The position numbers and the translations under genes were made by a program. Below, one piece after another: positions 25,553 to 29,933 of a stretch of DNA of 64,000 bases; positions within the stretch are counted from its first letter, which is position 1, and each line of letters opens with the position of its first letter. This stretch comes from an uncultured Cocleimonas sp. (GTDB lineage: Bacteria > Pseudomonadota > Gammaproteobacteria > Thiotrichales > Thiotrichaceae): the NCBI RefSeq assembly GCF_947495625.1, contig NZ_CANLZW010000011.1, forward strand, positions 1 to 64,000, given 5' to 3'. The notes under the pieces are model-generated. The model was not told the DNA's origin, made no database searches, and was given only the letters and a program-made list of their open reading frames with translations.

Positions 25553-26125
25553 ATGAAATTACAAGCTATCACACTAACTGCTCTTTTGGCTCTTGCTGGT
25601 ACTGCATCTGCTGATTGGTTCGATGGATTCAACAACGGTAACGGTTCAGGAAACGGATACGGCAACGCTGCTGGTAACGGTTCTACTGCTGGAAATGCTG
25701 CTGGTAACGGTTCTGCAAACGGCAACGGCTGGGGCACTGCAAAAGGTGATGCAGACGGAGAAGTTGATTTCTCTATCACTTTTAAAGGTAAAGGCCGCAC
25801 AGATATGGACACTGCGGGTAACCTAAGCGGAAACGGCGAAGGTGCTGGAAATGCTGCTGGTAACGGAAACGGCTACGGCAACATGGCTGGAAACGGTTAC
25901 AGTAACGGATACAGCTCGACAAACACTAACGGATACGGCCAAGGTTTCAATAACAATGGTTACGCTCCTGCTGGATCATACGCACCTGCTGGTTACAACC
26001 CTGCAGTAGCTGCACCAGCTCAAGACTACACACAGCTTAAAGCTATGTGGGAAGCACAAGCTAAGCAAGCAGAAGAAATGCTTAAGCGTATCGAAGCTGC
26101 ACAACAGAGCGCTGCTAAATCATAA
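25553..26125 (+). CDS. secreted Gly/Asn-rich protein, sulfur-globule-protein-like
   Basis: The 190-residue product has a clear signal peptide (MKLQAITLTALLALAGTASA, cleavage before DWFDGF). The mature part is dominated by GNG, AGN and NGYGN repeats (about 25-145), with a short non-repetitive island (DGEVDFSITFKGKGRTDMD). A Pro/Ala/Tyr segment (YAPAGSYAPAGY) and a charged helical tail (about 155-190) close it. The ADW start, GNGYG-type repeats and YAPAGY tail resemble sulfur-globule envelope proteins of sulfur oxidisers; this is recognition by composition, not proof. A strong AAGGAGAT site and a strong terminator suggest high expression from its own transcript. A structural biofilm protein is the main alternative. 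Confidence 0.6.
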   Translation: MKLQAITLTALLALAGTASADWFDGFNNGNGSGNGYGNAAGNGSTAGNAAGNGSANGNGWGTAKGDADGEVDFSITFKGKGRTDMDTAGNLSGNGEGAGNAAGNGNGYGNMAGNGYSNGYSSTNTNGYGQGFNNNGYAPAGSYAPAGYNPAVAAPAQDYTQLKAMWEAQAKQAEEMLKRIEAAQQSAAKS

Positions 26126-28026: not shown

Positions 28027-29208
28027 CTAAATCAGGCCTCTAGCCAAATCATTCTGTATATCCTGAATATCTTCAAGACCTACTGATACTCTTATTAAAC
28101 CATCAGAAATCTGAGTTTCATCTCGTAATTCCTGAGATAAACGTCCATGCGTAGTGGAAGCCGGATGCGTAATGGTACTTTTGGTATCACCCAGATTCGC
28201 CGTAATTGATAGCAACTGAGTATTGTTTATAACTTTCCACGCATTTTCTTTTCCGCCTTTTACAACAAAAGAAACAATGCCACCAAAACCAGATTGTTGC
28301 TTTTTGGCTAGCTCATGCTGGGGATGATCTTTTAGCCCCGGATAATAAACATGCTCTACGGCATCTTGCTTGTTTAACCACTCAGCCAGCTTCATTGCAT
28401 TTTCACAATGTGCTTTCATACGTAGACTAAGCGTTTCTAAACCTTTGGTAAATACCCACGCATTAAATGGGCTCATCGAAACACCGCCGGTTCGCAATAC
28501 ACCTGCAATATCTTCGCCTACGATTTTATTATTACCAACCACTGCTCCACCCAGACAACGACCTTGACCATCGAGGTATTTGGTAGCGGAATGAATAACA
28601 ATATCAGCCCCCATCTTTAATGGCTTTTGCAAAGCGGGCGTACAAAAACAGTTATCGATAACCAATAAACAATTATTGCTATGAGCGATATTCGCAAGTG
28701 CTGGAATATCGACCAATTCAGTTATCGGATTTGATGGAGTTTCTGCAAATAGAATACGTGTGTTTGGCTTAATTGCTTTTTTCCAGGCCTCTAGGTCTGA
28801 CAGCTCGACAAAATCAAAACCGATACCAAATTTTTCTAGATATTTTGTAAATAGGACCGTACTTGTACCAAAAATAGAACGTGAACTAACAACATGATCA
28901 CCTGCTTTCAACACGCCAAGCATCGTAGCTAAAATCGCTGCCATACCGGATGCCGTTGCAACACATGCTTCACCCTCTTCCAGCGCTGCTAACCGATCTT
29001 GAAAACACTTGATTGTAGGGTTTGAAACACGTGAGTAGAAGAAACCTTCTTCATCACCACCAAAACGTGCTGCTGCTTCTTCTGCACTTTTAAACACAAA
29101 ACTTGAAGTGGTGAAAATCGCCTCTCCATTTTCCTGAAAATCACTACGTTGATGCCCTGCTCTAATCGCTAAAGTATCAAATTCAAATTCGTCCAATTTA
29201 TTATCCAT
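28027..29208 (-). CDS. metZ: O-succinylhomoserine sulfhydrylase
   Basis: The 393-residue PLP enzyme makes homocysteine from O-succinylhomoserine and sulfide, the direct sulfhydrylation route to methionine. The Cys/Met metabolism PLP family fold is clear: TSSFVFKSAEEAAARFGG, FAETPSNPITELVDI and the PLP-lysine motif HSATKYLDGQGRCLGG near residue 210. The DGQGR form is typical of MetZ rather than MetB or MetC. The transcript appears to start about 340 bases upstream at a sigma-70-like promoter immediately before a candidate SAM-II-type riboswitch. Confidence 0.92.
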   Translation of the reverse strand: MDNKLDEFEFDTLAIRAGHQRSDFQENGEAIFTTSSFVFKSAEEAAARFGGDEEGFFYSRVSNPTIKCFQDRLAALEEGEACVATASGMAAILATMLGVLKAGDHVVSSRSIFGTSTVLFTKYLEKFGIGFDFVELSDLEAWKKAIKPNTRILFAETPSNPITELVDIPALANIAHSNNCLLVIDNCFCTPALQKPLKMGADIVIHSATKYLDGQGRCLGGAVVGNNKIVGEDIAGVLRTGGVSMSPFNAWVFTKGLETLSLRMKAHCENAMKLAEWLNKQDAVEHVYYPGLKDHPQHELAKKQQSGFGGIVSFVVKGGKENAWKVINNTQLLSITANLGDTKSTITHPASTTHGRLSQELRDETQISDGLIRVSVGLEDIQDIQNDLARGLI

Positions 29209-29280: not shown

Positions 29281-29313
29281 AAAAAACCCGCGTAGTCATG
29301 ACTAAAGCAGGTT
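29281..29313 (-). terminator. rho-independent terminator in the metZ leader
   Basis: On the minus strand AACCTGC pairs with GCGGGTT (one mismatch) around an inner palindrome TAGTCATGACTA, followed by a long T-tract. It lies between the candidate riboswitch and the metZ start codon, so it could be a regulated attenuator. Confidence 0.7.
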
Positions 29314-29412
29314 ATTTAACATTCATTGACCGCGCTTTAGCAAAATTTAAAAGTAATAGCTGATCAAATAAGTTGAATTTAGACGGTGATAAAAATTGTT
29401 CAGTTCTTCAAA

Positions 29413-29443
29413 CAAAAAGGCCAGAATAGTTATTCTATTTTGG
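29413..29443 (-). terminator. second terminator-like hairpin in the metZ leader
   Basis: On the minus strand CCAAAATAG and CTATTCTGG form a 9-bp stem with one G-T pair and a 5-nt loop, followed by CCTTTTTG. It lies about 55 bases after the candidate riboswitch, closer to it than the terminator at 29281. Confidence 0.5.
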
Positions 29444-29497
29444 ATGTTTTGTTGGAGAAAATGAGCGGTTTTTAGTCTGTATAAATCAACGACTTTG

Positions 29498-29547
29498 ACC
29501 AATTAGTGCTTTTGCGCCTGCAAGCTGATAATCAAATCGGCGCCTTT
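29498..29547 (-). promoter_or_regulatory. candidate SAM-II-type riboswitch
   Basis: On the minus strand, stem P1 pairs GCGCC (29543-29539) with GGCGC (29518-29514). Between the arms lie GATTTG (29538-29533) and GCTTGCA (29525-29519), the spacing and words of the SAM-II binding core known upstream of metA, metX and metZ genes. A pseudoknot is possible between TGATTA in the loop and TAATTG downstream (29505-29500). It begins at the predicted start of the metZ transcript. The 3' part matches the consensus less well, so a divergent SAM-II or SAM-V relative is possible. Confidence 0.68.
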
Positions 29548-29552
29548 CAAAT

Positions 29553-29581
29553 ACTATAAACCTAATTATTATTAGCGTCAA
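29553..29581 (-). promoter_or_regulatory. sigma-70-like promoter of metZ
   Basis: On the minus strand TTGACG (-35, 29581-29576) and TATAGT (-10, 29558-29553) are separated by exactly 17 bases. Transcription would start near 29546, directly at the 5' end of the candidate riboswitch. The -35 box overlaps the last codons of the gene at 29562. Confidence 0.65.
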
Positions 29582-29933
29582 ACACCCTTTGTTTAAGAAA
29601 TTCAATCGCCGTAGTTTGAGCTATTTTCTCAAATTCATCAGTATCTAAATCTTTATATTCAAATACTTTCGCAGAAATACTGCGGCTAGAAATAACCACG
29701 CGATGTCGTATTTTCAGAAACTCAATCACTTCAAATTTATTATTTGGTTTCTGCTTTCGATCATCGACTATTACCGATAGTCCTGCCTGAGTGAGTTCCT
29801 CATAAAGATTGTCTGTTGCTAACTTAACATTAAGGAATGTTTCAGATTGCATCGGCACAATGGCTACTTGAAATCCTCCACCATTTTCTACTTTATCGCG
29901 TAATTCATCGATATTGGATTGACTCAGATACAT
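29562..29933 (-). CDS. stand-alone anticodon-binding-like domain (ProRS C-terminal type)
   Basis: The 123-residue protein reads like the anticodon-binding domain of class IIa synthetases, especially prolyl-tRNA synthetase. Similar segments are FQVAIVPMQSE, LYEELTQAGLSVIVDDRKQKPNNKF, IRHRVVISSRS and VFEYKDLDTDEFE. No catalytic domain is present or adjacent. Free-standing domains of this type are known in other contexts as tRNA-binding or accessory proteins, but no function can be given here. It starts 22 bases after the macroglobulin gene and may be co-transcribed with it. It could equally be a remnant of a duplicated proS. Confidence 0.6.
   Translation of the reverse strand: MYLSQSNIDELRDKVENGGGFQVAIVPMQSETFLNVKLATDNLYEELTQAGLSVIVDDRKQKPNNKFEVIEFLKIRHRVVISSRSISAKVFEYKDLDTDEFEKIAQTTAIEFLKQRVFDANNN

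Follow-up and report, generated by a model that had tools for sequence, protein, structure and literature searches.

Is the leader of metZ a SAM-II riboswitch, where do the two halves of its aptamer lie, and does it act on transcription? The locus lies in the window, the 64,000-nucleotide stretch of DNA analysed here, which comes from a genome of the order Thiotrichales close to Cocleimonas flava. A preliminary description had placed a complete, compact aptamer within positions 29498-29581, directly at the transcription start of a methionine gene and followed by two terminators. The gene and its promoter are:

28027-29208, minus strand: metZ, O-succinylhomoserine sulfhydrylase, 393 aa, the regulated gene (NF006003, 1e-204; TIGR01325, above cut-off)
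29553-29581, minus strand: promoter TTGACG-17-TATAGT, identical in C. flava, with promoter-like sites at the same place in relatives

The NF006003 match upholds the naming of the gene as metZ, and the encoded protein is 95% identical to MetZ of C. flava (tblastn). The proposed promoter, TTGACG and TATAGT separated by 17 bases, is present at 29581-29553 and is shared by C. flava. Promoter-like sites are found no more than 75 nt upstream of the aptamer in 31 of 59 relatives; a control interval placed farther upstream has one in 1 of 59. The transcript is expected to start directly ahead of P1.

Two other genes of the window deserve mention. At 29562-29933 (minus strand), a 123-aa protein consists of a stand-alone anticodon-binding domain (PF03129, HGTP_anticodon, 2e-13); it lacks the catalytic domain of prolyl-tRNA ligase, whose C-terminal region it resembles, and adjoins metZ in C. 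flava as well, with 80% amino acid identity. At 25553-26125 (plus strand), a secreted-looking protein of 190 aa gives no match in Pfam and contains many GNG/NGNG repeats.

Downstream of the promoter, the 5' half of the aptamer is made up of the following parts:

29513-29547, minus strand: 5' half of the SAM-II aptamer (one difference from C. flava in 35 nt; 13.3 bits with RF00521)
29539-29543, minus strand: 5' strand of P1
29533-29538, minus strand: GATTTG
29514-29518, minus strand: 3' strand of P1

The P1 helix described earlier (GCGCC/GGCGC, enclosing GATTTG and GCTTGCA) is indeed present at 29543-29514, and loop 1 ends in CAGCTTGCA. Of 369 genomes sampled from the class, 114 contain the pattern of P1, GATTTG and GCTTGCA, and the reversed pattern gives 0 matches. 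Across 59 loci, the P1 pairs covary (C-G/U-A and G-C/C-G/U-A). A single clear coupled pair across the loop, as expected from the pseudoknot, is formed at all 59 loci (46 G-C, 12 A-U, and 1 G-U; A-U in the window). In the distal (second, P2) pseudoknot segment, a swap test detects no covariation.

The covariance-model check called for in the preliminary description gives a match of RF00521 to 29553-29483 with 17.5 bits, below the gathering score of 36, and 13.3 of these bits come from the 5' half alone. A scan of the whole window with Rfam at gathering thresholds returns 0 matches. Elsewhere in the genome, RF00521 gives noise-level matches only, and matches in 14 control genomes are equally weak. 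The uninterrupted C. flava orthologue scores 30.2 bits and congeners score up to 40.8 bits, above the cut-off; the matches in congeners lie directly upstream of metZ where contigs could be matched. The window falls below the cut-off because its aptamer is interrupted. Comparison with about 90 relatives supports a SAM-II riboswitch here, assigned through descent instead of score, so the identity proposed earlier stands while the placement of the 3' half does not.

The interruption is evident in the alignment with C. flava, in which the 5' half is directly joined to TAAATTTTGCTAAAGCGCGGTCAATG; the window has 163 bp between the two halves. In particular, C. flava reads ...GGCGCA, three bases, and then TAAATTTTGCTAAAGCGCGGTCAATGAAT, which RF00521 aligns as the 3' half. 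The insertion and the true 3' half in the window are:

29350-29512, no strand assigned: 163-bp insertion in the loop separating P1 from the 3' core, a decayed relative of a MITE family (element proper about 29509-29353); absent from C. flava, with related copies in congeners and in the genomes G027 and G031
29321-29349, minus strand: true 3' half of the aptamer, comprising TAAATTTT, the core GCTAAAGCG (29341-29333), and CGGTCAATGAAT; 29 of 29 nt identical to C. flava

Among 90 gammaproteobacterial SAM-II copies, 86 have 12 nt between P1 and GCUAA, and the others have 13, 14, 21, and 31 nt. The corresponding distance in the window is 172 nt, far beyond the range of all other copies compared, with the core and the A-rich strand both present and identical to C. 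flava.

In the compact arrangement proposed earlier, the 3' half would be AAAAGCACTAATTGGTCAAAG, directly after P1 at about 29513-29493. The RF00521 alignment runs through this segment to reach its 17.5 bits, and a GAUUA/UGGUC pairing is possible. However, the segment adds just 4.2 bits to the score of the 5' half, and the presumed 3' half (29512-29498) is the left end of the insertion, at the left end of the MITE, with ACUAA where relatives carry GCUAA. The alignment with C. flava further disfavours this arrangement, as the true 3' half is kept at 29349-29321, 163 bp further downstream. We therefore regard the compact aptamer as very improbable. The earlier reading had left out the split aptamer, the most interesting feature of the locus.

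Two other loci with enlarged loops were also noted. A gammaproteobacterial metZ SAM-II (L050, contig JAHXHF010000060.1, about 1768-1830) has a hairpin-like loop of 31 nt at the same place together with a shortened loop 1, and constitutes a second, independent loop expansion. In L185 (G062:C8, about 18037), the 21-nt loop arose by tandem duplication of AAATACAG.

Downstream of the true 3' half, the elements relevant to termination are:

29281-29313, minus strand: intrinsic terminator AACCTGC...GCGGGTTTTTTT, with hairpin and T-run in relatives
29302-29310, minus strand: CTGCTTTAG in the 5' arm of the terminator, the antiterminator partner of the core at 29341-29333 (duplex -14.1 kcal/mol)
29413-29443, minus strand: apex AATAGAATAACTATT of the MITE, common to family copies and earlier read as terminator 1

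Only one of the two terminators proposed in the preliminary description survives comparison. The hairpin at 29313-29281 is real and conserved, a terminator hairpin with T-run following the aptamer in 51 of 61 loci; that at 29443-29413 is the MITE apex and not a conserved terminator. The 5' arm of the terminator (typically CCUGCUUUAG) and the aptamer core GCUAAAGCG are complementary to each other. The core/arm duplex has a mean stability of -12.7 kcal/mol, as compared with -5.8 kcal/mol for shuffled arms. In 4999 of 5000 permutations over 50 loci, with related sequences treated as independent, cores pair more stably with their own arms than with swapped ones. Because the 5' arm can pair with the core, a SAM-controlled terminator/antiterminator switch is predicted, and comparison with about 90 relatives supports the transcriptional control suggested earlier. 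As judged by these comparisons, the leader has the features of a transcription attenuator in which the terminator excludes an antiterminator built from aptamer bases, with a predicted dependence on SAM.

In the mechanism that we propose, transcription would begin just ahead of P1 and the SAM-II leader would attenuate transcription of metZ. When SAM is bound, the core GCUAAAG would be held in the aptamer, leaving the arm CCUGCUUUAG free to form the terminator at 29313-29281 and turning metZ off. Without SAM, GCUAAAGCG (29341-29333) would pair with CUGCUUUAG (29310-29302) to form the antiterminator, and metZ would be read.

The origin of the insertion can be traced. Direct BLAST of the insert against its own genome and 38 relatives gives no second copy, and searches of plasmids and phages give nothing useful. 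An order-wide search yields 12 matches in G027 (68-78% identity) and 2 in another relative; the element in the window, about 157 bp, shares 78% identity over 84 nt with the best copies from G027. With a family copy as the query, 49, 29, and 19 matches are found in the congeners G009, G001, and G010, respectively. The element family, dispersed through the genus and the taxonomic family, is a MITE of 154-160 bp with ends GGAAACYCTGATCAAGTC, TTAA/CTAA target duplications, and the common apex AATAGAATAACTATT. Such TTAA/CTAA duplications are of the type made by IS5-family transposases. The 15-nt apex is present in either orientation in 19 of the 23 family copies listed, and the window copy is identical to it.

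The ends of the window copy are less well preserved. The right end matches the family terminal inverted repeat GGAAACYCTGATCAAGTC at 12 of 18 positions (chance of at least 11, 0.8%), and the left end at 8 of 18, which is chance level. No target duplication is recognisable at the insert, which is flanked by AAAA and TTTT, whereas other copies have clear TTAA/CTAA duplications. The end arms match at 11 of 19 positions, as compared with 14-18 in other copies, indicating that the insertion is not fresh. As the left end and the target duplication are unrecognisable, we describe the insert as an old, decayed relative of the MITE family rather than an intact member, decay itself being assumed.

In the congeners G009, G001, and G010, MITEs also form tandem clusters (L215 and L223, for example), in which 2-3 elements lie about 160 bp apart. 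A reading of the insert as an integron attC site was dropped on visual inspection, since the core sites are wrongly oriented.

In the predicted fold, the insert RNA forms one self-contained hairpin from end to end. Its minimum free energy is -31.6 kcal/mol, as compared with -18.0 kcal/mol for shuffled sequences (z -4.3), and 0 of 500 shuffles are as stable. Each of 300 shuffled inserts is predicted to pair more with the flanks than the insert itself does. P1 has a probability of 0.95 with the insert present, and P1 and the antiterminator are predicted to be at least as likely with the insert as in the spliced sequence. Since the insert is predicted to fold as one self-contained hairpin, the two halves of the aptamer could meet.

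The long hairpin of the insert, upstream of the switch, might add a second control point, as a partial terminator or an RNase III site, and CCTTTTTG follows the apex on the metZ strand. However, the apex stem is A/T-rich, the T-run sits within a longer stem, and the terminator scan at 29413-29443 calls a terminator-like site on the opposite (plus) strand only. We consider this role improbable.

Sequence conservation bears on whether the split switch is still functional. The two aptamer halves differ from those of C. flava by 1 change in 64 nt, while fourfold sites of metZ differ at 54%. The decay of the MITE ends corresponds to about 0.13 changes per site since insertion, provided that its ends were initially as well preserved as those of other copies. 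On this rough estimate, about 8 changes would be expected in 64 nt, and no more than one is observed. That the halves are nearly unchanged while the MITE ends have decayed suggests that the split switch remains under selection on both halves after the insertion.

Alternatively, the MITE may have broken the riboswitch, leaving the halves as remnants and metZ under the control of the promoter and a SAM-unresponsive terminator, or of a new start downstream of the terminator. The 172-nt loop is without parallel in the other loci, and any long insert delays the synthesis of the 3' half, both as expected if the switch is broken. The single change in 64 nt of aptamer despite the decayed MITE ends speaks against it, as does a self-folding insert that does not lower the predicted probability of P1 or of the antiterminator relative to the spliced sequence; in addition, a scan of the leader reveals no promoter-like site downstream of the terminator. 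We regard a broken riboswitch as a less likely alternative.

The split, the kinship of the insert with the MITE family, the intact halves, the conserved terminator, the co-evolving complementarity of core and arm, and the predicted self-contained fold of the insert together point to a MITE-split SAM-II attenuator of metZ in which both halves and the switch are retained, and we consider this reading probable. From sequence and predicted folds we infer SAM binding, the direction of switching, and the working of the split switch; the split aptamer likely still binds SAM. In our proposal, the old MITE occupies the loop that separates P1 from the 3' core, and its transcript would fold into a long hairpin of its own that joins the halves instead of competing with them; the switch would have been kept. 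Whether this is a working aptamer split by a transposable element, whose hairpin became a structural arm that bridges 163 nt to reunite the two parts of the ligand pocket, we judge to be evenly balanced.

Much of the system has precedents. At E<=1e-4, RF00521 matches 94 of the 370 genomes sampled from the GTDB class and 0 of 14 control genomes. The class as delimited by GTDB also holds the former betaproteobacteria. A gammaproteobacterial SAM-II had been called notable in itself; given these matches and reports from 2007 and 2009 (PMC2258182, PMC2704228), it is not new. A survey from 2014 lists SAM-II in Rhizobiales and Rhodobacterales only (PMC4239095). SAM-II aptamers followed by regulatory terminators are likewise known (PMC2258182), and transcriptional control by the metZ SAM-II of S. 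meliloti has been predicted and followed experimentally (PMC9373788). The riboswitch class, the gene, SAM-II in gammaproteobacteria, and SAM-II attenuation are already known; what is unusual and new is that a MITE lies inside the aptamer. Among the open-licence papers searched, we found no report of a MITE or other mobile element inside a single riboswitch aptamer and no paper on riboswitches in Cocleimonas.

The leader shares with the SAM-II families (RF00521, SAM_alpha; RF01726, SAM-II long loop) the P1, GAUUUG, CUUGC, and GCUAAA core upstream of metZ, but carries the 163-bp mobile element as an interruption of the loop that connects P1 to the 3' core. The S. meliloti switch has the same gene, class, and predicted SAM-dependent terminator, and yields a short riboswitch sRNA as a product; it is alphaproteobacterial, however, and an aptamer insert is not described there (PMC9373788). 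Many aptamers tolerate non-conserved stem-loops at particular sites (PMC2258182), whereas the insert in the window is traceable to a dispersed mobile element and occupies a site that almost never varies in length in the class. A pneumococcal BOX, a MITE-like repeat, is also transcribed in a riboswitch leader, upstream of trp, with regulation apparently kept, but lies between two T-box riboswitches rather than inside one aptamer (PMC3049150).

If the split switch works, it would be a natural test of how much fits between the halves of a pseudoknotted aptamer, and would show mobile elements as an origin of the variable peripheral hairpins of riboswitches. Scans with covariance models overlook interrupted aptamers, and can take the end of a mobile element for the absent half. 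For SAM-II in Thiotrichales and other gammaproteobacteria, the comparative set yields a clear model of terminator and antiterminator. A betaproteobacterial 'metXZ element', a pseudoknotted RNA reported as new, precedes metX or metZ and includes a terminator; by its description it resembles a SAM-II attenuator (PMC4239095).
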